Below, piece by piece: positions 791 to 21,939 of a stretch of 64,000 nucleotides of DNA. The stretch covers positions 1 to 64,000 of the forward strand of contig NZ_JASAOF010000021.1 of assembly GCF_029952525.1 (NCBI RefSeq), in the 5' to 3' direction. The notes under the pieces were generated by a model. It did no database searches. It saw only the letters and a list, made by a program, of their open reading frames with translations, and was not told the origin of the DNA. A program made the translations under genes and the position numbers. Positions within the stretch are counted from its first letter, which is position 1; each line of letters starts with the position of its first letter. Source of the DNA: Saccharopolyspora ipomoeae (GTDB lineage: Bacteria; Actinomycetota; Actinomycetes; Mycobacteriales; Pseudonocardiaceae).

Positions 791-1825
791 TCAGAGAGGG
801 GGTGAGCGGCGCGCGGTCTCTGACGGCAGGACGCCGAACCTCTTGCGGTACTGCTCGGCGAATCGGCTCAGGTGGAAGAATCCCCACCGTGTGGCGACGT
901 CGGTCACGGAACCACCTGAGGCGAGTTCGAGGTGCGCGCGATCGAGCCGCACCCCGCGGAGGTAAGCGGTCGGCGACACTCCGACCAGGTCCCGGAAGCC
1001 TGCCTGGAGCGCTCGTGGGCTGAGAGCCGCAACCGCAGCGAGATCAGCAGTGGTGATCTCGTCCTCGGGATGTTCGTTGATGTACTCCACGGCCTGACGG
1101 ATCTTCGCCCGCCGTGTGCGTATCGGCCTGTCGTTCAACGCCGGGCTCAGCTGACTCGGCACTGTCAGGAGAAGCTGGGTCATCAGTGCGGATTCGATCT
1201 CGCGGCAGGCCGCCGGGATGCTGGCGAGCCCGGCAGGGCGACAGCATTCGGTGTACAGGAAGCGAACGGTTTCGATCAGCGCCCGGCTCATCTCGGTCCT
1301 GAGGTTGAAAGCCAGGTCAAATTGGATGTCTTCGCCGAGCGGTGGTCCGACCAGCTTGGCCGCGTGGGAATCGAGCAGCGCTTTTGGCAGCTTGACGTGG
1401 TATTGCCAGGAGTCGGCACTCATGCGGACCATCAGTGGAGCGCAAGGCCCGAAGGCCACTCCGGCTTCGCCGCCGGAGAAGGTTCGGCGGTGGCCACCCT
1501 GTTCTGCGGTGGCTTCGCCTGTGATCGGAATGTTGATGTGATAGCACTGCCGCATCGGCGGGCCCTTGATCGTCACCATTGCGCCATAGGCCAGCTGACC
1601 GATCGTGAGCCGTGGAGACTGCGCTAGCTCGAGTCGAAAGTCCAGGCTGCGCTCGCCGGTGATCTTGACCTCGTGTTGGCTGAACGTCCGGGACGTGTGT
1701 TCCCGGGCAGCATCGAGGTCCGCCGTGTGCAAGCGCAGAGGGGCAGCGGTGCCCGTGGGGAATCGCGCGCCGGAAGCGTTGACCTGATCGCGCTGCGCCG
1801 CCTCGTCATGGTGACGACCGACCAT
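791..1825 (-). CDS. AraC-family transcriptional regulator (first of two paralogues)
   Basis: A 344-residue protein with an N-terminal sensing domain of the AraC-binding type (about residues 40-200, including SPRLTIGQLAYGA and SADSWQYHVKLPKALL). A C-terminal double helix-turn-helix covers about residues 240-340, with TTADLAAVAALSPRALQ as the first HTH and VTDVATRWGFFHLSRFAEQY as the second, the normal AraC/XylS signature. It is divergent from the cytochrome P450 gene at 2035, so that promoter is its most obvious target. The protein is clearly homologous along its whole length to the AraC regulator at 14837-15823, which sits at the far end of the same plus-strand gene run. The ATG at 1825 has no strong Shine-Dalgarno, so the start is uncertain by some tens of codons. 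Effector unknown. Confidence 0.9.
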   Translation of the reverse strand: MVGRHHDEAAQRDQVNASGARFPTGTAAPLRLHTADLDAAREHTSRTFSQHEVKITGERSLDFRLELAQSPRLTIGQLAYGAMVTIKGPPMRQCYHINIPITGEATAEQGGHRRTFSGGEAGVAFGPCAPLMVRMSADSWQYHVKLPKALLDSHAAKLVGPPLGEDIQFDLAFNLRTEMSRALIETVRFLYTECCRPAGLASIPAACREIESALMTQLLLTVPSQLSPALNDRPIRTRRAKIRQAVEYINEHPEDEITTADLAAVAALSPRALQAGFRDLVGVSPTAYLRGVRLDRAHLELASGGSVTDVATRWGFFHLSRFAEQYRKRFGVLPSETARRSPPL

Positions 1826-1968
1826 GGCGGCAGAGTATGGCCCACGTGCGCAGGAGGGTCAACTGACAAGTCACCCGCCCGTTGATCCGACGTCGTTTTG
1901 CGGCTACTCGTCGTCGCCTCGAGGATAGTGGTCCATATCTCATCCAAAATAAAATGTGTCATGTAGCA

Positions 1969-1991
1969 CGTGCACCTGGTTCAGATGCACG
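1969..1991. promoter_or_regulatory. Inverted repeat in AraC/P450 divergent intergenic region
   Basis: CGTGCA and TGCACG are separated by 11 bases, 44 bases before the P450 start codon and just downstream of an AT-rich patch (1945-1960). It is a candidate operator for the divergent AraC regulator. This is inferred from position only. Confidence 0.3.
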
Positions 1992-2034
1992 ACCTGAAGA
2001 TCACGTCAGTTCGGACATCGAGGAGAACCGCCCC

Positions 2035-3228
2035 ATGACAAGCGCAGTCGCGTTCAACCCGCTCACGCCGGACTACCAGCAAAACCCCTACGATTACTAC
2101 CGGACGATGCGCCAGGAGTCGCCCGTCTACTACATCGAGCCGCTCAACCTGTGGGCACTGTTCAGGTATGACGACGTGATCACCACCGTCAAGCGGCCGG
2201 ACCTGTTCTCCTCCAAGGACTGGATCGCGAACACGCTGGGTGAGTTCGACGTGGTGCCCGAGGTGCCGTCGCTGATCTCGATGGATCCGCCGGACCACAC
2301 CCGCCTCCGGAAGCTGGCGAACAAGGCCTTCCTGCCCGGCGTGATCCGGAAGATGGAGGACGGTATCCGGCGGCTGATCAGCGAGCTCCTCGACGAGGTC
2401 CAGGACAAGGATGAGTTCGACTTCGTCAACGACTTCGCCGCGCACGTACCGGTCAACGTCACCGCACAGATCCTCGGGGCTGATCCGGAGATCGCGCGCA
2501 ACGAGTTCAAGCGCTGGACGATGGATCTGCTCCAGGCGCCGAACCGGACCGTGCTGCCCCAGGAGGATCTGGACCGCATCCGGACCAGCGTCAACGAGCT
2601 GCGCGCCTATTTCACCGACCTGATCGCCTACCGGCGGAAGAATCCTTCGAACGACCTGGTCTCGGCCCTGGTTGAGGCTGAGGAGGACAGGCAGGCACTG
2701 ACCTCGGACGAGATCCTCAGCCTGGTGTTCCTGCTGCAGTTCGGTGGCTCGGAGACCCCGTCGCACCTGATCAGCTCGGCGCTGTACGAGTGCTTTCAGA
2801 ATCCCGAGGCACTGGCAGCGGTCAAGTCCGACCCGGCTGCGACTGCGAAGGTGATCGACGAGGCCTTCCGGCACATGTCTCCGGTGCACTTCCTGAGCCG
2901 CACCACCACGCAGGACATCGAAATGCACGGCATCACCATCCCGGCGAACTCGATCGTTCTCTCCTACATCGGCTCGGCCAATCGCGACGAGACGATCTTC
3001 GACGACCCTGACAAGTTCGACATCAACCGCCAGGGTGTCAGCAAGCACCTGGCCTTGGGGCTGGGCACCCACTACTGTATCGGCGCCCTGCTGGGAAAGA
3101 TGATGTGCGGCACGGCTCTCGGTGCGGCCCTGGAGCGAATGCCGAACCTGCGGCCGGTGCACGACACAGTGGAATGGATGCCGTCGTGGTGGGTCCGCGG
3201 CCTCGCCAAGTACCCGGTCCGCCCCTAG
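2035..3228 (+). CDS. Cytochrome P450 monooxygenase
   Basis: A 397-residue soluble bacterial class I P450. The heme-ligand loop LGLGTHYCIGALLG carries the proximal Cys. The K-helix ExxR is present as EAFR. The I-helix oxygen-activation motif reads FGGSETPSH, a variant of AGxDT with Glu-Thr in place of Asp-Thr. The open frame extends back to 1882, but the ATG at 2035 follows GGAGAA and begins where family proteins begin. It is followed after 50 bases by a fused ferredoxin/reductase that can supply electrons from NADPH. The divergent AraC gene is a likely regulator. Substrate unknown; the surrounding genes suggest hydroxylation as an entry step of a degradation pathway. Confidence 0.93.
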   Translation: MTSAVAFNPLTPDYQQNPYDYYRTMRQESPVYYIEPLNLWALFRYDDVITTVKRPDLFSSKDWIANTLGEFDVVPEVPSLISMDPPDHTRLRKLANKAFLPGVIRKMEDGIRRLISELLDEVQDKDEFDFVNDFAAHVPVNVTAQILGADPEIARNEFKRWTMDLLQAPNRTVLPQEDLDRIRTSVNELRAYFTDLIAYRRKNPSNDLVSALVEAEEDRQALTSDEILSLVFLLQFGGSETPSHLISSALYECFQNPEALAAVKSDPAATAKVIDEAFRHMSPVHFLSRTTTQDIEMHGITIPANSIVLSYIGSANRDETIFDDPDKFDINRQGVSKHLALGLGTHYCIGALLGKMMCGTALGAALERMPNLRPVHDTVEWMPSWWVRGLAKYPVRP

Positions 3229-3278
3229 CAGACGCCGTCGATCCATTCCTATCCGCATTCTCCAAGGACGCTCCCACA

Positions 3279-4949
3279 ATGCCGCACGTGATCACGCAGA
3301 ACTGCTGCAACGACGCCTCATGCGTGCCGGTCTGCCCGGTCGACTGCATCCACCCGACGCCGGACGAACCGGAGTACTTCACCGCCGAGATGCTCTACAT
3401 CGATCCTGATGTCTGCATCGACTGCGGAGCCTGCATCGATGTCTGCCCGGTCGGAGCCATCACCCCTGATAGCGACCTCACGCCGGAGATGGCGCCCTAC
3501 GAGCAGATCAACGCCGACTACTACGCCGCGACTGGTTCCGCGGTGGACCGGGACACCGCGGATGAGCCGGCTCCGCCCAGGTGGGACATGTCGGCAGCCT
3601 CGGATGTGGGGCCTCTGAAAGTCGCCATCGTCGGTACTGGTGCAGCGGGCCACTACGCGGCCGAGGCGCTGCTGGAGCAGACCGACGTGCCCGTCCGGGT
3701 CGACATGTTCGAACGCCTGTGCACTCCGGGTGGTCTCGTTCGCTCCGGTGTTGCCCCAGACCATCCGACGACGAAGCAGGTGCAGGAGTCTTTCGACCGG
3801 ATCACGGCGCGCAAGGAGGTGCGCGCCTTCTTCAACGTGGAGGTGGGCAGCGACATCAGCCACAGCGAGTTGCTGCATCGGTACCACGCCGTGGTGTACG
3901 CCGTGGGCGCCATCGAGGGCAAGCGGGTCGGCGTGCCAGGGGAGGAGCTTCCGAACAGCGTCTCGGCGTCAGAGTTCGTCGCGTGGTTCAACGGCCACCC
4001 GGATTTCGCCACCCGCTTCTTCGACCTCTCGCACGAGCGGGCGGTCATCCTTGGCAATGGCAACGTTGCCCTCGACGTGGCGCGCATCCTTGCAGCGGAC
4101 CCCGGCGAGCTGGCGGGTACGGACATCGCTGAACACGCGCTGGACGCGCTTCGAAGTTCTCTGATTCGAGAGGTCGTGATCGTCGCTCGCCGGGGTCCGC
4201 AGGACGCCGCGTTCACCTCCCCGGAGTTGCGTTCATTGATTGAAATGGAGGGTGTCGACGTCGTCGTCGACACGGAACAGCTCGCTTCCCGGCCACTGGA
4301 CGACGACGATTCCCCGCACCGTCGGTTCAGCCGCGATCTGAAGCTCTCGCTGCTGCGCCAGGCCGCCGACACCGTCCCGGAGTCCGACCGCCAAATTGTC
4401 TTGAAGTTCTTCCGAGCACCGGAGGAGATCCTCGGCGAGGACCAGGTGTCGGGCATCCGTCTGCGTCACCGCAAGGTCGCCGACGGCACCACTGGGGAGG
4501 AGACCGACACCCTGGACTGCGGCCTGGTGCTCCGAGCGGTGGGCTACCGCGGAACCCAGATCCCGGAGGTTCCGTTCGACGAGGAACGCGGCACGATGCC
4601 CAACGAAGGCGGGAGAGTTCTGGATTCCGCCGGCGGTGCGGTGACCCCGGGCACCTACACCACGGGATGGATCAAACGCGGCCCGACCGGCGGGATCGGG
4701 ATGAACAGGAAATGCGCCCAGGAGACCGTGCAGTCCCTCTTGGCGGACTTCGTGAACGGTCGGCTGAGCACGCCCACCCACGAAATCGAGGATCTCGCGC
4801 AGCAGCTTCCCGATTCGTTCGATCTGGCCGGAGCTCAGGCGATCGACATGCACGAGGTTGACGAGGGAAACCGCGTTGACCGTCCTCGGGTCAAGGTCGT
4901 CCGGCGCGACGAGCTCCTGACCATTGCGCTTTCCGCCTCGGAGGAATAA
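3279..4949 (+). CDS. Fused 7Fe ferredoxin / FAD-NADP reductase (FprB-like)
   Basis: A 556-residue two-domain electron-transfer protein. Residues 1-110 are a 3Fe-4S/4Fe-4S ferredoxin with NCCNDASCVPVCPVDCIHP and CIDCGACIDVCPVGAI. The rest is an adrenodoxin-reductase-type flavoprotein with the FAD Rossmann motif VAIVGTGAAGHYAAEALL, the family segment GVAPDHPTTKQVQ, the NADP site ILGNGNVALDVARIL and the C-terminal WIKRGPTGGIGMNRKCA. Mycobacterial FprB has the same architecture and similar length. The chosen ATG follows AAGGACG and starts exactly at the ferredoxin domain; the longer frame back to 3105 overlaps the P450 and is rejected. Immediately downstream of the P450, it probably moves electrons from NADPH to the heme. 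Confidence 0.93.
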   Translation: MPHVITQNCCNDASCVPVCPVDCIHPTPDEPEYFTAEMLYIDPDVCIDCGACIDVCPVGAITPDSDLTPEMAPYEQINADYYAATGSAVDRDTADEPAPPRWDMSAASDVGPLKVAIVGTGAAGHYAAEALLEQTDVPVRVDMFERLCTPGGLVRSGVAPDHPTTKQVQESFDRITARKEVRAFFNVEVGSDISHSELLHRYHAVVYAVGAIEGKRVGVPGEELPNSVSASEFVAWFNGHPDFATRFFDLSHERAVILGNGNVALDVARILAADPGELAGTDIAEHALDALRSSLIREVVIVARRGPQDAAFTSPELRSLIEMEGVDVVVDTEQLASRPLDDDDSPHRRFSRDLKLSLLRQAADTVPESDRQIVLKFFRAPEEILGEDQVSGIRLRHRKVADGTTGEETDTLDCGLVLRAVGYRGTQIPEVPFDEERGTMPNEGGRVLDSAGGAVTPGTYTTGWIKRGPTGGIGMNRKCAQETVQSLLADFVNGRLSTPTHEIEDLAQQLPDSFDLAGAQAIDMHEVDEGNRVDRPRVKVVRRDELLTIALSASEE

Positions 4950-5612: not shown

Positions 5613-5834
5613 ATGAACGAGCATTCGAATACCACAAGTCCGCCCTTGTTCCTCGAACGACAGCCGGTCGAAGGAAGCTGTCCCCGTTGTGGTGCTGAGG
5701 AACTCCGCAGTTATCCGGTGAATTCGGAAGGCGGCTGGTTCGACGTCGTGAAGTGCCAGGAGTGCTTGGGCACGGTCAGCCGTGAGCGCGGTCCACTGCT
5801 CGGGCCGATCAAGCTTCTCTCCGACCAGCTGTAG
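5613..5834 (+). CDS. Small zinc-ribbon protein, putative carboxylase accessory subunit
   Basis: A 73-residue protein with one zinc ribbon: CPRC near residue 23 and CQEC near residue 48, joined by an aromatic-containing strand segment (SYPVNSEGGWFDVVKCQEC). A second copy of the same small family is encoded at 19730-19990, also beside a HyuA/HyuB pair; shared features are PVE..CP.C, a YPV segment and VVKCQ.C. Its stop lies 11 bases before the HyuA start. Acetone and acetophenone carboxylases carry a small zinc-containing subunit in addition to HyuA/HyuB-like subunits, so I infer this is a minimal equivalent. The ribosome site is weak (GGAG, 11 bases before ATG). Function is inferred from context; no catalytic residues are visible. 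Confidence 0.75.
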   Translation: MNEHSNTTSPPLFLERQPVEGSCPRCGAEELRSYPVNSEGGWFDVVKCQECLGTVSRERGPLLGPIKLLSDQL

Positions 5835-5845
5835 CGAAGGGATCA

Positions 5846-7894
5846 ATGATGATCGCAGTCGATGTGGGCGGCACGTTCACCGACGTTGTCGCCTTGCGAA
5901 ACGGCCGGATCGAAACGGCGAAGGTGTCGACGGACTACTCCGACGTCAGCCAGCCGGTGATCGAGGGTGCGGCAGCGCTGGGAGTTGAGGACGCGAGCTA
6001 CTTCAACCACGCGAGCACTCACGGACTGAACGCCGTGATCACCCGCCGGTTGCCGAAGATCGGCTTTCTGGCGACAGAAGGCCACCGCGACATCCTCGAC
6101 ATGGGACGCGTGTGGCGCCCGCCGGAGGCCATCCTGGACCCGCGATGGCGCCGGAGCTTCGGGGACGCGTCCCGGCCGCTCGTGCCCAGATACTTGCGGC
6201 GCGGCATCCGCGAGCGCGTCACCGCCGAGGGCGCTGTGCTCTTCGAACTCGACGAGGAGCAGGCAAGGGCGGAGCTGGAGGTCCTGCGCCGGTGCGATGT
6301 CGCCGGCGTGGCGATCTGCCTGATCAACGCGTACGTCAACCGCGCGCACGAGCAGCGCCTGCGGGAGCTCGTGCAAGAGGTCCTCGGGAATGTGCCGTGC
6401 TCCATCTCCAGCGAGGTCTCTCCGCTGGCCAAGGAGTACGCGCGTGCCTCGACTACGGTCGTCGACGCTCTGATGAAGCTGATCTACGCCGACTACACCG
6501 CGAAGTTGGAGAACGGGCTCGCCGAGATCGGCTTCACCGGTCAGTTGAACTTCGCGGACTGCGCTGCGACTTTGGTCCCTTCACAGCGCGCGATGGAGCA
6601 GCCGTTCCGGATCGTCTTCTCCGGCCCGGCAGCCGGCACTGTCGCAAGTGCTCACTTCGGCTCCCTGATCGGCGAGTCGAACCTGCTCTGCGCCGACATC
6701 GGTGGTACCTCCTGTGATATCAGTGTCGTGACCGATGGAGAGCCGTTCGTCAACACGAGTTTTGAACTCGAGCACGATCTCGTGGTCAATGCGCTGGCGA
6801 ACGATGTCAGCGCGATCGGTGCTGGCGGTGGAAGTCTCGTCACCATCGGTCGGACAGGGGAGATCCAGGTCGGTCCCAGCAGTGCGGGGTCCGTTCCCGG
6901 GCCGGCTTGTTACGGGCGAGGCGGTACCCAGCCCACCACCACCGACACGTGTCTGATGATCGGGATCATCGACCCGGACACGTTCGCCGGGGGGAAGCTC
7001 AGCCTCGACCGAGACCTGTCCCGCAAGGCTTTCGAGACCCTCGAGTCGGAGTTCACCCTCGCTCAGCGCGTCCGGTACGCCTACGAGATGGCGGTGCACA
7101 ACATCGCCGAGGGCGTGTTCAACGTGGCGATCAAGAACGGCGTCGATCCCCGGGATTTCAGCCTGATCGCCTACGGGGCGGCAGGGCCGATGTTGCTCCC
7201 GGCTGCAATGGACATGGTGCACTGCAAGCAGGTCGTCGTACCGCCGAACCCGGGCTTGTTCTCCGCGCTGGGACTGCTGTCGGCGGACCAGGTCTACACC
7301 GCCAACCGCAGTGCGTACATGGTGCTCAGCCCGGAGATCGCACCACGCATCGACGCGCTGTTCACCGAGATGGAGAACCAGATCCGGGAGCGGCTCGACC
7401 CGGGCACCGAGGTCACGTTCGAGCGCAGCTACGACGGGCACCTGGTCGGCCAGAGCTGGGAGACCCCGTTCGTCCCCGTTCCCGGCGGCAACATCGATGA
7501 TGACGCCATCGAGGCGATGATCCGCGCTTTCCACGAGGTCTACGAGGAGCGTTCGCACAACCGCTTCGACGCGTTGCCGGTGGAAGGAGTGACCTTCCGG
7601 GTGCGTGCGGTGCTGGATACACCGAAGGTGAGTTACCCGGAAATTCCACGGCGAGCCGCAGACGAGCCGCTCGAGAGGAGCCGCACGGTGACGCTGCGGT
7701 ACCTGGGCGACACCGACGCGGATGATGCCGACGCCGGGCAGCAGGCCGACGTCTACGACCGCGCTGCGCTGCGGGCTGGCGACGAGCTAGAGGGTCCGAT
7801 CATCGTCAACGAGGGGCTGTCGACCAGCCACGTCGCGAAGCACCAGCGCATGACCGTCGGTCCATACGGCGAACTCATCATCCGGAGGAAATGA
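5846..7894 (+). CDS. HyuA-family ATP-dependent subunit (acetone/acetophenone carboxylase or hydantoinase type), copy 1
   Basis: A 682-residue hydantoinase A/oxoprolinase-family protein. The N-terminal phosphate-binding motif is AVDVGGTFTDVVAL. The second ASKHA-type phosphate motif is ADIGGTSCDISVV, with IVFSGPAAGTVASAHFG before it. The C-terminal domain (about residues 500-680) matches the family's usual end. In this family the subunit uses ATP to activate either a cyclic amide or, in acetone/acetophenone carboxylases, the ketone and bicarbonate. It is co-directional with the zinc-ribbon gene (11-base gap) and HyuB (3-base gap). The neighbouring aldehyde dehydrogenase and acyl-CoA synthetase fit a carboxylase better than a hydantoinase, but sequence alone does not exclude N-methylhydantoinase or 5-oxoprolinase activity. 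Two adjacent ATG codons (5846, 5849) follow GAAGGGATCA. Confidence 0.88.
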   Translation: MMIAVDVGGTFTDVVALRNGRIETAKVSTDYSDVSQPVIEGAAALGVEDASYFNHASTHGLNAVITRRLPKIGFLATEGHRDILDMGRVWRPPEAILDPRWRRSFGDASRPLVPRYLRRGIRERVTAEGAVLFELDEEQARAELEVLRRCDVAGVAICLINAYVNRAHEQRLRELVQEVLGNVPCSISSEVSPLAKEYARASTTVVDALMKLIYADYTAKLENGLAEIGFTGQLNFADCAATLVPSQRAMEQPFRIVFSGPAAGTVASAHFGSLIGESNLLCADIGGTSCDISVVTDGEPFVNTSFELEHDLVVNALANDVSAIGAGGGSLVTIGRTGEIQVGPSSAGSVPGPACYGRGGTQPTTTDTCLMIGIIDPDTFAGGKLSLDRDLSRKAFETLESEFTLAQRVRYAYEMAVHNIAEGVFNVAIKNGVDPRDFSLIAYGAAGPMLLPAAMDMVHCKQVVVPPNPGLFSALGLLSADQVYTANRSAYMVLSPEIAPRIDALFTEMENQIRERLDPGTEVTFERSYDGHLVGQSWETPFVPVPGGNIDDDAIEAMIRAFHEVYEERSHNRFDALPVEGVTFRVRAVLDTPKVSYPEIPRRAADEPLERSRTVTLRYLGDTDADDADAGQQADVYDRAALRAGDELEGPIIVNEGLSTSHVAKHQRMTVGPYGELIIRRK

Positions 7895-7897
7895 GCC

Positions 7898-9844
7898 ATG
7901 AGCGACCTCAAGCCCTCATCAGTGGACACGACGCCCCTGATCCGTGAGATCTCCGACGAGCAGTTCCAGGCGGCGTACGGCTGTGATCGGTTCACCGCAG
8001 CGGTGCTGGTGAACCGGCTGAAGTACGCGGTGGGGCACATGGCCACCGCTTTCCTGCGGGAGGCGTTCTCGCCGATCATCCGGGACTGGTACGACTTCGC
8101 CTGCACGATCAGCGGACCACCGGAGCAGGACTACCGGATGGCTGTGGTCAGCAACAGCCTCACCCCGTTCCTCGGGACGATGCCCGATGCCTGCCGCAAT
8201 GCCGTCGAGGAGTTCGGTCCGGAGAACCTCTCGCCAGGTGATGTGTTGATCTGCAACGACCCGTATCGCGGCGGAACTCACGTCAACGACGTGCTGTTCA
8301 CCCGGCCGGTGTTCGTCGACGGCGCCATCGTGGCGTTCGTGAACATGCGCGCCCATCAGCTCGACATGGGCGGCACCGTCCCGGGCGGGTTCTCCGCGAC
8401 CAAGACGAATGTCTACGAGAACGGCGTGGTGATCCCGCCGGTGCTGCTGTGGTCGAAGGATGAGCCGGTGCGCTCGTCCTTCAGCCTCATCTTCGACAAC
8501 ACGCGTTGGGGTTCGATGTTGCTGCCGGACTTCAAGAGCATGCACCAGCAGCTGCAGCTCGGTGAACGGCTGGTGCGCGAGAACATCGACCGGTACGGGC
8601 TCGCCGCCTTTCTCGGGTCGCTGAACTACGCCTGCGACACCTCGGCGGAACGGATGCGCGAAGCGCTCGCCGACATCCCTGACGGGGACTACACCGGTAG
8701 CGCGACCGTTGACGCCGACGGCCTTGACGACACCATCGACTACACCGTGCACGTGACCCTGCGCAAGCGCGGCAAGCACGTCGAGGCGGACCTTTCGGGC
8801 ACTTCCGGACAGGCTCGCACCTGCATCAACTGCGGCATCTCCGACGCGAAAACAGCGTTGGGGGTGGCCTTGACGATGCTGCTCGATCCGGAAATTCCGT
8901 TCACCTCCGGTACCTGGCGCCACGTGGACCTGGTCGCCCCACCCGGAACACTTCTGACGGCCCTGCCTCCAGAAGGCGCTCCCATGATGTTCTGGGAAGC
9001 CTCGGGGGCACTGATCGCAGCCATCTTCAACGCCCTGAACCCGGTGTTGGGCGCCAATGCGGTGGCCGGCGACTACGGCTCGACGAACACGCACAACGCC
9101 AGCGGTGTTCGTCCCGACGGAACGTACTGGACGAGCGCGACGCAGTGCGGCGGCGAACACGGTCCGTGGGGCGCCACCAAGGAGGGCGACGGGGACAGCT
9201 ACACCGTGTTGTTCAACCTGAACAACCTGGATCCGGCGACCGAGACGATCGAGCATGATTCGCCGATCGTGCTGCTCCGCAAGGAGCACGCGATGGACAC
9301 CGGCGGACCCGGGAAGCACCGAGGAGGCGCGGCCAACCTCAAGGACTCGCTGTGGCTGACCGATGCGGAGCAGCACTTGTCGCCATTCCGGACCAAGGAG
9401 CCCAGCGGCGTCGGTGCCAACGGGGGCGAAGCCGGCCCGACCGGCGCGATGTGGGTCTTCCCGCCGGAAGGTGAAGCGCTGGAGGGACTGGTCGGGGTGA
9501 CGCCGGAGATCTACGCCCGCAGCGTGCCGGTGGCCGGTGTCCTCGATCCGGACACGAAGGTGCTGGACCCCGAGAGCGGGAAGTACCACTACTTCGCAAG
9601 CCAGAAGCCTTGGAAGACCAAGGCCGGTTCGGTGCTTCGTTGCTTGACCAACGGAGGCGGAGGTTGGGGCGCTCCGTTCGAGCGCGACCCGCGGAAGGTC
9701 CTCGCTGACGTGCGGGACGAGTACGTCAGTCCCGAAGGCGCGGCTCGTGACTACGGCGTTGTCGTGGTGGGCGATCCCCATTACGACCCCGAAGGGCTCC
9801 GAGTGGATGAGCAGGCCACCGCCGAGCTCCGCTCACGAGGTTGA
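7898..9844 (+). CDS. HyuB-family subunit (acetone/acetophenone carboxylase or hydantoinase type), copy 1
   Basis: A 648-residue hydantoinase B/oxoprolinase family protein. The typical segments are visible: ICNDPYRGGTHVNDVLFTRP, RAHQLDMGGTVPGG, the D-S-P-I-V-L-L-R-K-E-H-A-M-D-T-G-G-P-G-K-H-R-G-G block, and GGGGWGAPFERDPRKVLADV near the end. It forms the catalytic complex with the upstream HyuA, from whose stop it is separated by 3 bases; GGAGGAAATGAGCC supplies the ribosome site. In acetone carboxylase the corresponding alpha subunit holds the metal site where carboxylation occurs. Together with the zinc-ribbon protein this makes a three-gene module repeated at 19730-24006 in a different gene order. 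Confidence 0.88.
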   Translation: MSDLKPSSVDTTPLIREISDEQFQAAYGCDRFTAAVLVNRLKYAVGHMATAFLREAFSPIIRDWYDFACTISGPPEQDYRMAVVSNSLTPFLGTMPDACRNAVEEFGPENLSPGDVLICNDPYRGGTHVNDVLFTRPVFVDGAIVAFVNMRAHQLDMGGTVPGGFSATKTNVYENGVVIPPVLLWSKDEPVRSSFSLIFDNTRWGSMLLPDFKSMHQQLQLGERLVRENIDRYGLAAFLGSLNYACDTSAERMREALADIPDGDYTGSATVDADGLDDTIDYTVHVTLRKRGKHVEADLSGTSGQARTCINCGISDAKTALGVALTMLLDPEIPFTSGTWRHVDLVAPPGTLLTALPPEGAPMMFWEASGALIAAIFNALNPVLGANAVAGDYGSTNTHNASGVRPDGTYWTSATQCGGEHGPWGATKEGDGDSYTVLFNLNNLDPATETIEHDSPIVLLRKEHAMDTGGPGKHRGGAANLKDSLWLTDAEQHLSPFRTKEPSGVGANGGEAGPTGAMWVFPPEGEALEGLVGVTPEIYARSVPVAGVLDPDTKVLDPESGKYHYFASQKPWKTKAGSVLRCLTNGGGGWGAPFERDPRKVLADVRDEYVSPEGAARDYGVVVVGDPHYDPEGLRVDEQATAELRSRG

Positions 9845-9916
9845 TCACGCGGCCGGAGTGGCTCCGAGCGGGCATTCCGGCCGCACTGAGCTGAAACGAA
9901 TTGAGGAGTGAATCCA

Positions 9917-10651
9917 ATGGCTTCCGCAGCCGTTCCCACGTCGAATGATCGGAACCTCTTTTTCGCGTGGAGTACTTACACGTCGGACTACGACACGTAC
10001 GCCAAGTGGTACGACGAGGAGCACATCCCGCAGGTCATGGACGCGCCGGGAATCCTGGGAGCACAGCGGTTCGTGATCGCTGACACCAAACCGCTTCCCG
10101 GGGTGCGTTCGCTGGACTTCGGACATCTTGCGCTCTACGAGATGGAAGGGTCAGCGCAGGGCTTCCGGGAGGAGGTGAAGCGGAAGCTGATCTCGCAGGA
10201 GATGGTCCTTCCCGACTACATGGTGCAGCCCTTCAAAGCATTGTTCCTCAAATCGGTCAGTTCCCCGTTCTACTCCGCCTCGTTCGAAGAGGCTGACAGC
10301 CTCGACGACCGGCACATGTTCTTCGCCTGGAGTCGGCACACAGGAGACGACAAGACGTTCGCGAAGTGGTACGACGAGGAGCACATCCCGCAGATCATGT
10401 CCGCACCTGGTGTGCTGCGTGCTGAGCGCTTCGAGGTTTCCGAGGTGAAACCCCTGCCTGGGGTGGAAGCACTCGATCTGGGACACCTCGCGATCTATGA
10501 GACCGCGGGTGACCTGGGGGGCTTCCGCGAGGAGGTCAAGCGGCAGCTGGTCTCGGGTGAAATGGTGATTCCGGACTTCATGATCAGCCCCTTCTCGACG
10601 ATGTTCCTGAAGCCGGTCAGCCCCTTCTTCCTCCCCAAGACCGGAACCTGA
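9917..10651 (+). CDS. Tandemly duplicated EthD-like (dimeric alpha-beta barrel) protein
   Basis: A 244-residue protein made of two near-identical halves of about 105-110 residues. Each half contains FFAWS, then KWYDEEHIPQ(V/I)M, then LPGV..LD(F/L)GHLA(L/I)YE, then GFREEVKR and a closing F(L)K(S/P)VS. The W-Y-x-x-E-H-x-P pattern is typical of EthD and related ferredoxin-like alpha-beta barrel proteins, which act as accessory factors, isomerases or decarboxylases in degradation pathways. A fused tandem pair mimics the homodimer usually needed to build the barrel. ATG 9917 is chosen because GAGGAG lies 8 bases upstream; the GTG at 9908 overlaps that site. It sits between HyuB and aldehyde dehydrogenase in the same operon. 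No specific activity can be assigned. Confidence 0.8.
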   Translation: MASAAVPTSNDRNLFFAWSTYTSDYDTYAKWYDEEHIPQVMDAPGILGAQRFVIADTKPLPGVRSLDFGHLALYEMEGSAQGFREEVKRKLISQEMVLPDYMVQPFKALFLKSVSSPFYSASFEEADSLDDRHMFFAWSRHTGDDKTFAKWYDEEHIPQIMSAPGVLRAERFEVSEVKPLPGVEALDLGHLAIYETAGDLGGFREEVKRQLVSGEMVIPDFMISPFSTMFLKPVSPFFLPKTGT

Positions 10652-10751: not shown

Positions 10752-12218
10752 ATGAGTGAACTGAAGGTAGCCGGGGTGACCGTGCCTCATGCGGATGCGA
10801 TTTATGTCGGTGGTGACTGGATATCCGCCACAGGCCGACCGTTTCACGTCGTCTCGCCCAGTACGGAGGAATCCGTCGGTGAGGTACGGCTGCCTGCAGC
10901 CGAGGAAGCCGACACGGCGGTCGCAGCCGCGCACGAGCAGGGACGTGACGCGTGGGGGAGCATGTCCGTCACCGCTCGGGTAGCGGTCTGCACGCGGTTC
11001 TGCGAGCGCCTGGAGGATCGTCTCGAGGACTTGGGCGCCGTATGGGCCGTCGAGGCCGGGATGCCCGTGCGCTACAGCGGCACCCTTCACAAGTACGGGG
11101 CTGTGGCTGCGTGGCGGTCCGCTCTCGACTCCGCCGAGGACGCTCTGCGGTCCGACGTGCGTTCCTCGCCGTTGGGTGAGGTAGTGGTCCAGCGGGAACC
11201 AGTCGGTGTGGTGCTCGCGATCATGGCCTACAACGGTCCGCTGGTCACGGTTGCGACCAAGGTTCTGCCGGCTCTGCTGGCCGGGTGTCCAGTCATCGTG
11301 AAGGCCGCGGAGGAGTCCCAGCTCACGATGCGGATCGTCGCCGAGTGCGCAGCGGATGCTGGCTTTCCGAGTGGAGTGCTGAGCATCCTGTGCAGCGATG
11401 TCGCGGTAGCGGAAAGGCTCACTGCGGATCCGCGCGTGGACATGGTGTCGTTGACCGGTGGGCGAAACGCAGCTCAGGAGATCATCGAGAACACCCGCGG
11501 TCGTTTCGCCCGCACGCACTTGGAACTCGGTGGGAAGTCCCCGGCGCTGATCCTCGACGACGCACCGATCGATCGGGTGTTGAAATCGTTGGTGCCGGGG
11601 GCCACTGGCGGAACGGGACAGGTCTGCGCGCTGCTGTCTCGAGTGCTCGTGTCCGAACGTCGGCACGATGAGCTCGTCGAACAGATGCGCGCAGCCTGGC
11701 AGGACCTGCGGATCGGTGATCCGCTCGACCCGAAGACCCGGGTGGGGCCCCTGCTGAACCGGGTCGCGCGTGAGCGGACCGAAGGTTTCGTGGAGCGCGC
11801 GATCGCAGCCGGCGGACAGGTCGTCTCCGGCGGTCGTCGGCCTCCTGAGTTGGACAAGGGCTTCTACTACGAGCCCACGCTGGTCACGGAGGTCGCCCCG
11901 GACGCTGAGGTGGTTCAGGACGAGGTGTTCGGGCCGGTCACGGTCGTGCAGACCTATCGGGATTTGGAGGACGGGATCAGGCTGGCCAACGACACCGGTT
12001 TCGGTCTGGCTTCCTCCGTCTACACCACCGACCGGGCGGTCGCGCTGGAGGTGGCTTCAGCGGTCGTGGCGGGCTCGGTGGCGATCAACACCTTCGGGCC
12101 CAGCGTGACCGCCCCCTTCGGCGGGCGGAAGGGATCCGGCTGGGGGCGGGAGTCGGGGCCTGAAGGGATCCAGGAGTTCACCGAGCTCAAACAGGTCGTG
12201 ATCGGCCCAGGTGTATGA
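10752..12218 (+). CDS. NAD(P)-dependent aldehyde dehydrogenase, copy 1
   Basis: A 488-residue member of the aldehyde dehydrogenase superfamily. The catalytic Cys lies in GGTGQVCALLSRVLV. The general-base region is HLELGGKSPALILDD. The cofactor region has AIMAYNGPLVTVATKVLPAL, and the C-terminal FGGRKGSGWGRESGPEG segment is typical. GAGGAA precedes the ATG by 9 bases. It lies in the carboxylase operon ahead of an acyl-CoA synthetase, so oxidation of a semialdehyde or aldehyde to the acid that is then activated is a reasonable pathway reading. Two further aldehyde dehydrogenases (26063 and 46065) lie in this window. Substrate not determinable. Confidence 0.93.
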   Translation: MSELKVAGVTVPHADAIYVGGDWISATGRPFHVVSPSTEESVGEVRLPAAEEADTAVAAAHEQGRDAWGSMSVTARVAVCTRFCERLEDRLEDLGAVWAVEAGMPVRYSGTLHKYGAVAAWRSALDSAEDALRSDVRSSPLGEVVVQREPVGVVLAIMAYNGPLVTVATKVLPALLAGCPVIVKAAEESQLTMRIVAECAADAGFPSGVLSILCSDVAVAERLTADPRVDMVSLTGGRNAAQEIIENTRGRFARTHLELGGKSPALILDDAPIDRVLKSLVPGATGGTGQVCALLSRVLVSERRHDELVEQMRAAWQDLRIGDPLDPKTRVGPLLNRVARERTEGFVERAIAAGGQVVSGGRRPPELDKGFYYEPTLVTEVAPDAEVVQDEVFGPVTVVQTYRDLEDGIRLANDTGFGLASSVYTTDRAVALEVASAVVAGSVAINTFGPSVTAPFGGRKGSGWGRESGPEGIQEFTELKQVVIGPGV

Positions 12219-12287
12219 CACGACCCCGATGACCGCAGTGGCATCGCGGACGTGCACTTCGGAGAATTGGACGGGAGGCGACGCACC

Positions 12288-13865
12288 ATGAGCTTCAACT
12301 GGGTGCTGGACTCCGCGGTTGCCCAGATCCCGACCGCGGGGAGCGAGAATGTCGCGTTGAGCTTCGACGGACGCGACCGGTTGACGTACCGCGAGCTGCG
12401 CGAGAAGTCAATGAGGTACGCGCAGGGGCTGCGTGATCTGGGCCTGGCCGAGGGGGATCGGCTCGGGTTGTTGTTGTACAACGACCCGGAATACCTCCCG
12501 CTCTGCTTCGCAGCCATGCGCCTGGGCGTCATCCTGGTGCGGTTGAACTTTCGACTCGCACCAACTGAGCTCGAGTTCATCCTGAACGACTCCGGAAGCA
12601 AGGCGCTGATCGTCCATAGCAGCCTGCTGGAATCAGTGGAACCGATCCGCGAGACCATCGACGTTGAGACCTTCGTGGTGCTTCCGGACTCCGATCGCGA
12701 ACTTCCGCCTTGGTCTCTGCCGTTCGACGTCGTGCGCGACAAGCCGGTGCTCGAGAAGTGGCTGGATATTGGAGATGACCACGGCATCGCGTTGATCTAC
12801 ACCTCGGGCACCACCGGCTTGCCGAAGGGTGCGCTGTGGAATCACGGGAACACGGTCGGAACGGCTACTCTGCAGGCGTTGAAGTGGAGTTTTTCGCCGC
12901 GAACCGTTGCCCTGGTTCCCGGCCCCCTGTACCACGCCGGGGGCTTCGAGGCGGTGACTGCACCGGCACTGCTGAGTCACGGCAGAGCCGTGAGCCTGCC
13001 GTCCGGTAACTTCTCGATCGAACACCTCTTGGACGTGATCCGGGCTGAGGGGGTGACGGATTGCCTCCTGTTCGCGTTCATGCTCAACGACATGCTGCGG
13101 TTGGATGACCTGGAGGACCGGGTTCCTCCGTCTCTGACGCACCTCATCATCGGCGGGGACACGATGATGCCGTGGACGGTGGCTGAGGTGCGCAAGCGGA
13201 TGCCGCAGGTCCGCCTCACCCAGGTCTACGGGTTGACCGAGGGCGGCGCCATTTCCACGACGCTTGATGACGATGACTTCGATGAGCAGAGCAAGAGCGT
13301 CGGGCGCCCGCTTCCGATGACCGAGGCGAAGGTGATCAACCCCTACGGGGAGCCTGCTGAGGTCGGCGAGGTCGGCGAGATCGTGGTCCGCGGTACGGGC
13401 GTGTGCGCGGGCTACTGGCGACGGCCTGAAGCGACCGAGGCGACATTCGTCGACGGCTGGTGTCGCACGGGTGACTTGGGGTCGGTCAATGCGGAGGGGT
13501 TCCTCAGCCTGGGTGGGCGCGCGAAGGACATGATCCGCAGTGGTGGCGAGAACATCTACCCCGCGGAAGTCGAGCGGGTGCTGACCGCGCATCCCTCCGT
13601 GCAGGATTGCGCAGTGGTGGCGGTACCGGACCCGAAGTACAACGAGGTCGGATGCGCGGTCATCGTTCCAGTGCCGGGATCGGAGATCGACGAGAAGGCG
13701 CTCAGGGAGTTCTGCAGGGCGCAGATGGCCGCGTACAAGATTCCGAAGTACTTCGTGGCGCAGGACGAACTTCCTCGCAACGCTTCGGGAAAGATCCTCA
13801 AATACCGACTTCGCGAGCGGTACGAGAACGTCGTTTCAGAGGGTTCGCGGCCCGCGGGCCTGTGA
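12288..13865 (+). CDS. Acyl-CoA synthetase (AMP-forming ligase), copy 1
   Basis: A 525-residue ANL-superfamily enzyme. The P-loop-like AMP motif is ALIYTSGTTGLPKGALW. The substrate/ATP motif is TQVYGLTEGG. The adenylation hinge segment is WCRTGDLGSVNAEGFLSLGGR, followed by KDMIRSGGENIYPAEVE. The C-terminal lysine motif is LPRNASGKILKYRLRE. It should convert a carboxylic acid, ATP and CoA to acyl-CoA. The frame runs back to 12252, but ATG 12288 has GGGAGG upstream and starts at the usual position. Acetophenone carboxylase gene clusters also encode a ligase for the beta-keto acid product; this gene is in the equivalent position. Confidence 0.93.
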   Translation: MSFNWVLDSAVAQIPTAGSENVALSFDGRDRLTYRELREKSMRYAQGLRDLGLAEGDRLGLLLYNDPEYLPLCFAAMRLGVILVRLNFRLAPTELEFILNDSGSKALIVHSSLLESVEPIRETIDVETFVVLPDSDRELPPWSLPFDVVRDKPVLEKWLDIGDDHGIALIYTSGTTGLPKGALWNHGNTVGTATLQALKWSFSPRTVALVPGPLYHAGGFEAVTAPALLSHGRAVSLPSGNFSIEHLLDVIRAEGVTDCLLFAFMLNDMLRLDDLEDRVPPSLTHLIIGGDTMMPWTVAEVRKRMPQVRLTQVYGLTEGGAISTTLDDDDFDEQSKSVGRPLPMTEAKVINPYGEPAEVGEVGEIVVRGTGVCAGYWRRPEATEATFVDGWCRTGDLGSVNAEGFLSLGGRAKDMIRSGGENIYPAEVERVLTAHPSVQDCAVVAVPDPKYNEVGCAVIVPVPGSEIDEKALREFCRAQMAAYKIPKYFVAQDELPRNASGKILKYRLRERYENVVSEGSRPAGL

Positions 13866-13920: not shown

Positions 13921-14736
13921 ATGACCCGTCCGACTGGAAGAAGGAATTCCGAGCTCGCGCTCGTTACTGGCGCGGCTGGGGGAGTGGGGTCCGCGACCGC
14001 GCGGCGTCTCGCCGAAGATGGTGCACGTGTCGCGATCACCGACATCAACGTCGAACGACTCAAGGTTCTTGCCGACGAGATCGGCGGGATCGCCCTGCCG
14101 GCCGACGGTACCAACGGGGAAGCGGTTCGCGATGTGGTCGCCCAGGCTGTGGCGGAGCTGGGTGGTCTGGACACTGTGATCGCGACTCAGGGAGCGGCGA
14201 TTGCTGGTACCGCGCGTCCGAAGCACGTGGACGCCTACCACAAGGCTCTCGACGTCAACTTGCACGGTTCGTACTACCTGGCCGGTGAGGTCATGCCGCA
14301 CCTGATCGAAAGTCAGGGGTCGTTGGTGCTCTTCGCCTCGACGGCGGGCCTCATCGCAGGCCCGCCCGGCACCGTCGGCTATACGGCGGCGAAGGCGGCC
14401 ATCATCGGTGTCACCCGCTGGTTGGCACGGGAGTACGGACCGCGGGGAGTGCAGGTCAACGCGGTGTGCCCCGGCTGGGTTCGGACGCCGCTCGGCGAAG
14501 GGGCCATGGCGCACCTGTCCGAGCGCGAGGGGATCACGGTCGATGAGGCCTATGCGATGACGGCACAGCACGTGCCCCTTCGTCGGGTGGCCGAGCCTGA
14601 GGAGATCGCCGGGTGCTGCACCTTCCTCGCGTCCGGCGATGCTTCGATGGTTACCGGGCACGTCTTGGTGGCCGATGGTGGTGGTGCTGCGGTCGACGCA
14701 TCAACGGTGGTGTTCGACGAAGCTCCGCAAGGCTAG
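13921..14736 (+). CDS. Short-chain dehydrogenase/reductase
   Basis: A 271-residue classical SDR: cofactor motif LVTGAAGGVGSATARRL, a variant of NNAG reading ATQGAA, a catalytic Ser region LFASTAG and the Tyr-Lys pair in GYTAAKAAIIG. It ends with the PEEIAGCCTFLAS...VTGHVLVADGG tail common to 3-oxoacyl-type reductases. GGAAGG precedes the ATG. Last gene of the plus-strand operon, 8 bases before a 19-bp terminator hairpin. Probably a 3-hydroxyacyl or alcohol dehydrogenase in the pathway; the substrate is not visible. Confidence 0.9.
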   Translation: MTRPTGRRNSELALVTGAAGGVGSATARRLAEDGARVAITDINVERLKVLADEIGGIALPADGTNGEAVRDVVAQAVAELGGLDTVIATQGAAIAGTARPKHVDAYHKALDVNLHGSYYLAGEVMPHLIESQGSLVLFASTAGLIAGPPGTVGYTAAKAAIIGVTRWLAREYGPRGVQVNAVCPGWVRTPLGEGAMAHLSEREGITVDEAYAMTAQHVPLRRVAEPEEIAGCCTFLASGDASMVTGHVLVADGGGAAVDASTVVFDEAPQG

Positions 14737-14836: not shown

Positions 14837-15823
14837 TCAGCCACGCCCGCTGCGTGCGGTCTCCGAGGGAAGACATCCGAAACGGTCGCGATATTGGTGC
14901 GCGAACCGCCCGGGGTGGTAGAAACCCCACCTCGCGGCGACCTCGGTGACCGACGCCGCGCCTGCTACCAGCTCGCAGTGCACCCGGTCCAGTCGTACTT
15001 CGCGGAGATAGGCAGTCGGCGACATTCCGACCGTTTCGCGGAAGCCCACCTGGAGCGTGCGTGGGCTGAGAGCCGCCATCGCTGCGAGGTCCGCGGTGGT
15101 GATCTGCTGGTCGGGGTTCCGGTCGATGTAGTTGATGATCTCCCGGATCTTCGAGCGGGGGGTGTGCGCGGGCTTGTGATCGAGCTCGGGGGTCAGCTGG
15201 CTCGGGATCGTCATGAGCAGCTGAGTCATGAGGGCGGACTCCAGCTCTTGGCAAGCGGCGGGGAGCGTGCCGAGACCTCCTGGTCTCGCCAGCTCTGCGT
15301 AGAGGAAGCCGGCCGTGGCGACGAGCGCCCGGCCGGTGCTGGAGGTGATGTCGAAGGTGAGATCGAAGTCGACTCCGTTTGCCACCGGGTGCCCTGAGAG
15401 TTTGGCGGCGTGGGTCTCCAGCAGGTTCTTGGGGAGCTTGAGGTGGTACTGCCAGGAGTCCGCGCTCCAGGCCACCATGACGGGAGCCTGTGGCAGGAAA
15501 GCGACTCCGGCCTCTCCGGCTGTGAAGGTTCTGCTGCGGCCGTTCTGCTCAACCGTGCTCACGCCTGACCCGGGCAGGTTGACGTGGTAGCACAGCTGCA
15601 TCGGGGGGCCGTAGAGCACCGCGTCCGCGCCGTAGGTCATGCGTCCGATCGTCAGACGTGGCGACGGGACGACGTCGAGGTGGAAGTCGAGGCTTCGGGA
15701 CCCTTGAATGTGCAGCTCGTGGTTGGCGAAGGTTCTCGTCACGTGATCTTGGGCGAGGTCGAGGTCCGCTGTGTGGAGGTTGAGCGGTCGCCTGTGGTCA
15801 ACCTGCTGCTCCTTCTGGTCCAC
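14837..15823 (-). CDS. AraC-family transcriptional regulator (second paralogue)
   Basis: A 328-residue AraC/XylS regulator with an N-terminal ligand-sensing domain (SPRLTIGRMTYGAD, SADSWQYHLKLPKNLLETHA) and a C-terminal HTH pair (TTADLAAMAALSPRTLQVG and SVTEVAARWGFYHPGRFA). It resembles the regulator at 791-1825 over its full length, pointing to a duplication. The open frame extends to 15865, but GTG 15823 has a strong GGGAGG five bases upstream and is preferred. It is convergent with the carboxylase operon, and an AT-rich palindrome lies 47 bases upstream of its start. Confidence 0.9.
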   Translation of the reverse strand: MDQKEQQVDHRRPLNLHTADLDLAQDHVTRTFANHELHIQGSRSLDFHLDVVPSPRLTIGRMTYGADAVLYGPPMQLCYHVNLPGSGVSTVEQNGRSRTFTAGEAGVAFLPQAPVMVAWSADSWQYHLKLPKNLLETHAAKLSGHPVANGVDFDLTFDITSSTGRALVATAGFLYAELARPGGLGTLPAACQELESALMTQLLMTIPSQLTPELDHKPAHTPRSKIREIINYIDRNPDQQITTADLAAMAALSPRTLQVGFRETVGMSPTAYLREVRLDRVHCELVAGAASVTEVAARWGFYHPGRFAHQYRDRFGCLPSETARSGRG

Positions 15824-15869
15824 GGTGACCTCCCTGCATGACGTGCAAGTGTTCCTCAAAACCATTATC

Positions 15870-19713: not shown

Positions 19714-19743
19714 CCCGACTCGGTAGGGGTCAACCGAGTCGGG
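19714..19743 (-). terminator. Hairpin terminator overlapping the stop of the second zinc-ribbon gene
   Basis: Perfect 11-bp arms CCCGACTCGGT/ACCGAGTCGGG with an 8-base loop. The right arm covers the last codons of the zinc-ribbon gene just before its stop, the stop itself falls in the loop, and the hairpin closes the minus-strand HyuA-HyuB-zinc-ribbon operon. Confidence 0.75.
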
Positions 19744-19990
19744 ACGGGGCCCAATCGCGGGTGGGGGAGCGCCATGCCGGCCAGTGGTCCTCGGGCTCAG
19801 GGCGAGTCACCGCGAGGTGGGTGAAGCAGTCCTGGCACTTCACGACCATCCGCGGGCCCTGGTAGTTCGCCACCGGGTAGCGGGCGACGTTCGTTCCGTC
19901 GCAGGACGGGCAGGTGGCCTCCACCGGCGTTCGTTCGACGGAGACCCGCGGGGTCTCCGGACGGGGGAAGAGGAGTCGGTCGAGTGACAT
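19730..19990 (-). CDS. Small zinc-ribbon protein, putative carboxylase accessory subunit, copy 2
   Basis: An 86-residue protein with one zinc ribbon, CPSC and CQDC, spaced by NVARYPVANYQGPRMVVK. It is recognisably the same family as the 73-residue protein at 5613-5834; the copies share PVE..CP.C, a YPV segment and VVKCQ.C. AAGGAGAAACCCG precedes the ATG, and HyuB ends 14 bases upstream. The order here is HyuA-HyuB-ribbon, whereas copy 1 is ribbon-HyuA-HyuB, so the association has survived rearrangement. I infer a structural or regulatory subunit of the adjacent enzyme, comparable in role to the small zinc subunits of acetone and acetophenone carboxylases. Confidence 0.78.
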   Translation of the reverse strand: MSLDRLLFPRPETPRVSVERTPVEATCPSCDGTNVARYPVANYQGPRMVVKCQDCFTHLAVTRPEPEDHWPAWRSPTRDWAPSRLG

Positions 19991-20004
19991 CGGGTTTCTC
20001 CTTC

Positions 20005-21927: not shown

Positions 21928-21939
21928 GGTGGTAGCTCC

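Follow-up and report, generated by a model that had tools for sequence, protein, structure and literature searches.

Gene organisation of the locus

The window, a 64,000-nucleotide stretch of Saccharopolyspora ipomoeae DNA (contig NZ_JASAOF010000021.1, positions 1 to 64,000), contains two modules that each combine a HyuA, a HyuB and a short ribbon protein. The relevant features are listed below, with the basis of each assignment in brackets.

791..1825, − strand: AraC-family regulator (family match)
1882..3228, + strand: cytochrome P450 (family match; open reading frame bounds, with a likelier start inside)
3279..4949, + strand: fusion of a ferredoxin with a pyridine-nucleotide oxidoreductase that is probably a ferredoxin reductase (family match; internal ATG chosen)
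5613..5834, + strand: ZnR1, 73-residue zinc ribbon with C23, C26, C48 and C51, proposed third subunit (open reading frame, AF2 model)
5846..7894, + strand: HyuA1, ATP-binding (ASKHA) subunit, 682 residues (Pfam, motifs)
7898..9844, + strand: HyuB1, metal-site subunit, 648 residues (Pfam, alignment, AF2 model, Foldseek)
9908..10651, + strand: EthD-like protein, 247 residues (family match)
10752..12218, + strand: aldehyde dehydrogenase (ALDH) (family match)
12252..13865, + strand: AMP-forming acyl-CoA ligase (family match)
13921..14736, + strand: short-chain dehydrogenase (SDR) (family match)
14837..15865, − strand: second AraC-family regulator (family match)
19730..19990, − strand: ZnR2, 86-residue ribbon, 14 bases after HyuB2 (ribbon search)
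20005..21927, − strand: HyuB2 (family match)
21940..24006, − strand: HyuA2 (family match)

The ribbon, HyuA and HyuB genes of module 1 lie where an earlier note on this DNA had placed them. They follow one another on the + strand, with gaps of 11 bases between ZnR1 and HyuA1 and 3 bases between HyuA1 and HyuB1. The ALDH and CoA ligase that it had placed nearby were recovered by family matches downstream on the same strand. No alpha' gene of the kind found in Apc lies between or beside ZnR1, HyuA1 and HyuB1. The ferredoxin-oxidoreductase fusion comes after the P450 gene, and the set of P450, ferredoxin-reductase fusion and AraC regulator is also present in a Sinomonas locus (L054), in a different order. 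The two halves of the EthD-like protein resemble each other, and its sequence thus shows an internal duplication.

The second, divergent module (HyuA2-HyuB2-ribbon, 19730-24006, − strand) lies about 10 kb from module 1, with its ribbon downstream of HyuB2. Beside it, at 16194-18557 on the − strand, is a lone large subunit of the xanthine/CO-dehydrogenase type (molybdenum-hydroxylase-like), named from its sequence and not by the family scan.

HyuA1 and HyuB1 carry the ATP and metal sites of the superfamily

HyuA1 matched Hydant_A_N and Hydantoinase_A, and HyuB1 matched Hydantoinase_B, in each case far above the Pfam cut-offs. The phosphate motifs (DxGGTxTD and DxGGT) and the adenosine motif (GxxPGP) of the superfamily are present in HyuA1 as DVGGTFTD at residue 6, DIGGT at 284 and GSVPGP at 348, and the same motifs are reported for CapA in the available text of PMC8453981. 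The Asp-His-Asp-His metal site, which that text describes as essential in caprolactamase, corresponds in HyuB1 to D66, H128, D131 and H153, as read from an alignment to CapB and from the same text (PMC8453981); these residues were invariant in 49/49 aligned sequences.

The AF2 model of HyuB1 (pLDDT 88.7) matched N-methylhydantoinase (E 3.4e-43), acetone carboxylase (1.2e-37), Apc (6.7e-37) and caprolactamase (2.3e-35) in Foldseek. Both subunits found their best structure matches among hydrolases, and their profile scores were likewise highest against hydrolases (CapA 362.8 bits versus ApcC 251.5; CapB 184.8 bits versus ApcD 101.5). The ATP motifs, metal site and fold fit a carboxylase and a hydrolase alike, and the profile scores are nearer to the hydrolases.

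The ribbon is a constant companion of one group of HyuAB proteins

When 61 genomes (the own genome and its relatives) were searched with ZnR1 at a threshold of E 0.01, 14 contained a match. The seven best matches among these genomes adjoin HyuA/HyuB, the second place in the window being one of them; nine weaker ribbon-like matches (E > 0.001) had neither HyuA nor HyuB in their 20-kb stretches. The ribbon is scarce across the phylum (3/396 genomes, own genome counted). Matches were also obtained in five plasmid records, three from Rhodococcus, one from Burkholderia and one from an archaeon (E 0.9); this last match (Halostagnicola, H5) was rejected, there being no annotated HyuAB within 8 kb. 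In two annotated Rhodococcus stretches the ribbon is labelled 'hypothetical protein' beside hydantoinase genes, and the unannotated Burkholderia plasmid stretch has a gene order identical to theirs.

The linkage was next measured from the HyuB side. A six-row HyuB alignment was scanned against genome contigs, and the analysis kept the best 80 of the 104 relatives that this returned; the six seed HyuBs had originally been located via their ribbons, while the scan itself used HyuB alone. By record title, the best 80 belong to Actinomycetota (51), Pseudomonadota (23), Chloroflexota (3) and Bacillota (3), some titles of metagenome-assembled genomes (MAGs) being doubtful, and the soil genera with HyuB relatives include Amycolatopsis, Nocardia and Streptomyces. 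In 75 of these 80 loci a ribbon homologue, with an E of 4e-16 or lower, was found upstream of HyuA, and in 74 of the 75 it lies within about 150 bases. The five loci without a ribbon are L096, L114 and L118, whose contigs start inside HyuA, L108, which starts inside HyuB, and L103. The ribbon was thus present in every one of the 75 loci that keep the 5' end of HyuA, and the two-subunit make-up of hydantoinases and oxoprolinases, with no third gene, was seen in none of them.

Because of this 75/75 occurrence, the linkage between the ribbon and HyuAB is not due to chance. The ribbon is very probably a functional partner of HyuAB and, slightly less surely, a physical subunit. The proposal of the earlier note that it is a third component therefore holds up: in these loci it behaves as obligate. 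No description of such a ribbon with HyuAB was found among the open-licence PMC papers listed.

Several of these loci have peculiarities. L103 holds at 2157-4340 a module-1 HyuB with a HyuA remnant of only 65 residues and no ribbon, and is decayed, rearranged or misassembled. L077, L095, L103 and L115 are MAG contigs titled Klebsiella pneumoniae with modules that resemble those of gammaproteobacterial MAGs, so that the species titles look doubtful. At L101 a second module-1-like HyuB (5756-7780) comes after the first.

The module-2 ribbon was also present within the fetched stretch in eight of the best 80 loci (seven with Nocardia and one with Gordonia as title). Since the modules adjoin in these eight other loci too, they may act in one pathway. 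By hhalign the ribbons of the two modules are related families (probability 99.3%), and a third ribbon type is present in L025.

Ribbon-bearing HyuBs form a branch of their own

Across the phylum, Hydantoinase_B was detected in 78 of 149 genomes, at 141 places, five of them in the own genome. The survey took in 113 regions from other genomes (L169-L281), which contain 117 of the remaining 136 places; the other 19 are near-copies from one genus, additional copies in one genome, or fragments. One surveyed region carried a ribbon, ten a gamma subunit (by profile) and 102 neither, this absence being firm for 91 of the 102 because the other 11 are cut near HyuAB or lack a called HyuA. A search for small adjacent proteins with two CxxC pairs gave ten matches in 116 regions. 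Four of them are three gammas and the L272 ribbon; the other six, judged by eye, look antisense or unrelated, with L204 remaining a candidate.

A careful HyuB tree was built from 53 of 89 rows, with the tag of L063 corrected and L103 omitted. All 29 ribbon-bearing rows fell in one clade (support 100/99; 200/200 bootstrap trees), which takes in both modules and L025. The seven gamma-type rows, ApcD among them, formed a separate clade (100/99), so HyuB1 lies outside the gamma-bearing clade of Acx and Apc; the ribbonless hydantoinases were paraphyletic. The quick 89-row tree agreed (98 and 99), with L025 on a long branch; in it, the ribbonless hydantoinase L063 and the module-1 HyuB of L103, which lies next to a HyuA remnant, were wrongly tagged as bearing the module-2 ribbon, and L103 paired with L080. 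In the trees the ribbon branch falls on the side of the hydantoinases and apart from the carboxylase/gamma clade. We conclude with high confidence that, within the hydantoinase/ketone-carboxylase superfamily, the ribbon-bearing HyuAB proteins form a separate branch.

No detectable kinship between the ribbon and the gamma subunit

The earlier note had suggested that ZnR1 might be a minimal version of the small zinc subunit of acetone and acetophenone carboxylases (Acx and Apc). Its observation that the known small subunits are larger than 73 residues is borne out, as eight free PF08882 (gamma) proteins are 117 to 165 residues in full length. The kinship itself is not. In the profile search that the note had proposed, ZnR1 stayed below every family cut-off, its best match being PF13453 (15.9 bits where 22 are required); PF08882 was not among its matches, nor among the families listed (25 of 30) for 58 ribbons, and was not found in the own genome. 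By these searches ZnR1 does not belong to PF08882. A direct hhalign comparison of the ribbon profile with PF08882 gave 6.9% probability over 7 columns, and the ribbon profile found nothing among PDB sequences up to E 10. With 58 ribbons as input, AF2 modelled a small, well-ordered protein of beta structure (mean pLDDT 88.6); its top-ranked Foldseek matches were ribbons of the TFIIS/Rpb9 type, none under E 0.001, and the gamma of acetone carboxylase appeared only at rank 48 (E 5.7). These comparisons, together with the separate HyuB clades, disfavour the ribbon as a minimal gamma.

A different relative is suggested by VdcD/ShdD, subunit D of the non-oxidative hydroxyarylic acid decarboxylases. 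VdcD was the commonest NCBIfam match of the ribbons (19/58 at E 0.05, best 1.2e-4), with another, generic ribbon family close behind (17/58). Against three VdcD proteins, two of them near-copies, hhalign gave 85-90% for module-1 ribbons and 64% for module 2, and the single ZnR1 sequence found ShdD in the PDB at E 0.4-0.6. As the generic family scores nearly as well and the VdcD set is three proteins, we treat this kinship as a weak lead and not as membership: ZnR1 scores 16.5 bits against the VdcD cut-off of 30, and its adjoining genes are HyuA and HyuB instead of a UbiD-type decarboxylase. The own genome encodes a true VdcD elsewhere (G000:C11:604325-604534, L136; 111.6 bits), so that both ribbon types coexist in one genome.

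The zinc site is lost in some ribbons

Among the module-1 ribbons of the best 80 of 104 HyuB relatives, 58/75 have both CxxC pairs and 17/75 have neither. The cysteine-less ribbons are those of L070, L071, L075, L076, L082-L084, L086, L087, L094, L099, L101, L104, L105, L107, L109 and L119; L023, L037 and L038, outside the 80, also belong to this type. Apart from the cysteines, their sequence is retained. In an alignment of 58 ribbons, with and without the cysteines, E39, G41, W42, K47, R57 and G64 were invariant. On the 53-row HyuB tree the cysteine label changed at least three times, so one clean loss is unsupported. Since 17/75 ribbons do without the four zinc-site cysteines, the zinc is probably structural rather than catalytic, judging from the sequences. 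Those who solved the structures of Apc and acetone carboxylase also doubted, in the available text of their papers, that the gamma zinc is catalytic (PMC5214803, PMC5543143).

Neighbouring genes differ between ribbon and ribbonless loci

Gene neighbourhoods were read with a GC3-based gene caller, which misses some genes. Genes within 2.4 kb were counted at loci flanked on either side by 2.4 kb or more of sequence. The queries were taken from the operon in the window, a choice that favours close relatives. A CoA ligase was found at 29/61 ribbon-branch loci versus 4/81 ribbonless loci, an SDR at 28/61 versus 9/81, and an ALDH at 22/61 versus 1/81. With one ribbon-branch locus per genus the numbers were 13/31, 14/31 and 7/31, respectively. 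A CoA ligase was thus absent within 2.4 kb at 32/61 ribbon-branch loci (18/31 with one per genus). The five gamma loci with enough flank, too few for a positive control, gave one CoA ligase, no SDR and no ALDH; the CoA-ligase marker is therefore not proven for known carboxylases.

Pfam assignments were made for two sets of 116 neighbour genes, taken nearest first from 32 ribbon and 28 ribbonless loci and reaching 1.8 kb and 2.3 kb from HyuAB, respectively, after recognised ribbon, HyuA and HyuB reading frames had been removed by hand (nine from the ribbon list, one from the ribbonless list). The ribbon set contained 15 SDR, 13 AMP-binding and 8 Aldedh genes. The ribbonless set contained 2 SDR, 5 ABC transporter, 4 MFS, 3 isochorismatase and 1 amidase genes, as well as D-glutamate cyclase; AMP-binding and Aldedh occur there at most once each, since they are not among the families listed (25 of 91). 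The neighbouring CoA ligase, SDR and ALDH suggest an alcohol-ketone-acyl-CoA catabolism, unlike the neighbours of ribbonless hydantoinases. Of the earlier proposal of a new ketone or enol carboxylase, the gene context stands, as it fits a ketone-carboxylase-like pathway; the kinship of the ribbon to gamma does not.

Possible function of the ribbon-bearing enzyme

We propose, at about even confidence, that ZnR1, HyuA1 and HyuB1 form a three-subunit, ATP-dependent, ketone-carboxylating enzyme of a separate superfamily branch, in which binding, docking, carboxylation and substrate are all deduced indirectly. HyuA would use ATP to phosphorylate the enolised form of a carbonyl substrate and possibly bicarbonate too. 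The activated species would move to the HyuB metal site, where the bond would be made. The ribbon would be a constant non-catalytic subunit, probably docking on HyuB or at the A/B interface, with its zinc as a staple of the fold. The ketone could be made by P450 hydroxylation followed by SDR oxidation; it would most likely be carboxylated to a beta-keto acid and then activated by the CoA ligase, by analogy with benzoylacetate-CoA ligase after acetophenone carboxylase.

For a branch with its own third subunit, a ketone carboxylase seems more likely than a lactam hydrolase, and the chance that the ribbon-branch enzyme is such a carboxylase is, in our estimate, roughly one of two. The alternative of an ATP-dependent amidohydrolase with a third subunit, which would open a lactam, imide or hydantoin and pass the acid product to CoA activation, is rather unlikely. 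The closest profiles and structures are those of hydrolases, the tree groups the branch with the hydantoinases, caprolactamase is likewise described as bicarbonate-dependent in the available text of PMC8453981, and the molybdenum-hydroxylase-like gene lies by module 2. However, ribbonless loci are the ones neighboured by transporters, isochorismatase-like hydrolases (3/116), amidase and D-glutamate cyclase, while CoA ligase, SDR and ALDH neighbour the ribbon loci. A third subunit is also in itself unusual for hydrolases, gamma being absent from any Hyd complex according to the available text of Weidenweber et al. (PMC5214803).

The ribbon could instead be a separate, co-transcribed maturation factor or regulator that delivers metal to HyuB or binds nucleic acid. 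Zinc ribbons of similar length frequently bind nucleic acid, and folds of the TFIIS/Rpb9 type head the Foldseek list (none under E 0.001). We consider this improbable, as the ribbon keeps its position in 75 loci of four phyla while nearby regulators vary (AraC, TetR, LuxR), is limited to one HyuB clade, and is retained after loss of the metal site. That it is a shortened homologue of the Acx/Apc gamma is very improbable. Both are small four-cysteine zinc proteins beside HyuAB-like subunits, and HyuB-like proteins with a PF08882 domain in the same frame at the C-terminal end (L129, L131, L134) tie gamma to HyuB; against this stand the profile, fold and tree comparisons above, and the spacing of the CxxC pairs, which is 21 residues in the ribbon versus 49 in Apc gamma (zinc cysteines C22, C25, C75 and C78 in the available text of PMC5214803).

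The available text of PMC5214803 and PMC5543143 divides the superfamily into hydrolases of two subunits and carboxylases that bear gamma, and calls the role of gamma unclear. The carboxylase reading allows a wider, tentative proposal, to which we give somewhat less than even weight: biotin-independent, ATP-dependent ketone carboxylases may include a third lineage, found in Actinomycetota, Pseudomonadota, Chloroflexota and Bacillota, that arose on the hydantoinase side, recruited its ribbon independently of gamma, perhaps from the stock of VdcD, and later lost the zinc in some members. A branch whose small subunit has no detectable kinship to gamma, and in part of which the zinc site has been lost, makes it possible to test directly what such a subunit does and whether it needs its metal. 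If ketone carboxylation is true, it adds an uncharacterised biotin-free CO2-fixing enzyme in soil genera (Amycolatopsis, Nocardia, Streptomyces).

Comparison with known systems

The 721-kb plasmid of Rhodococcus GD02 contains the module, and a literature link to acetovanillone was examined for this reason; it was rejected, as the carboxylase there is biotin-dependent and the main text mentions neither hydantoinase nor oxoprolinase (PMC9618137). In a paper on molinate, HyuAB was tested on caprolactam, and the available text does not mention zinc (PMC9477822).

VdcD and ShdD, whose partner is a UbiD-type enzyme, resemble ZnR1 as short zinc ribbons that serve a (de)carboxylase, but ZnR1 is far under the VdcD cut-off. 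The HyuAB of the ARO microcompartment locus is likewise actinobacterial, of unassigned function and compared there to Apc; the main text on it never mentions 'zinc' (PMC10470539). CapAB and the ATP-dependent hydantoinases and oxoprolinases (e.g. N-methylhydantoinase) give the best profile and structure matches and share the D-H-D-H tetrad, but they have no third subunit, the ribbonless survey loci have other neighbour genes, and HyuB1 exceeds CapB in length by 67 residues (648 versus 581). Acx (AcxABC) and Apc (ApcABCDE) share a HyuA/HyuB-like core with ATP and metal sites and a small zinc protein, and Apc also has a CoA ligase in its operon. They differ in that their small subunit (PF08882) is not detectably related to the ribbon and their HyuB lies in another clade, and Apc further has alpha' and epsilon subunits.
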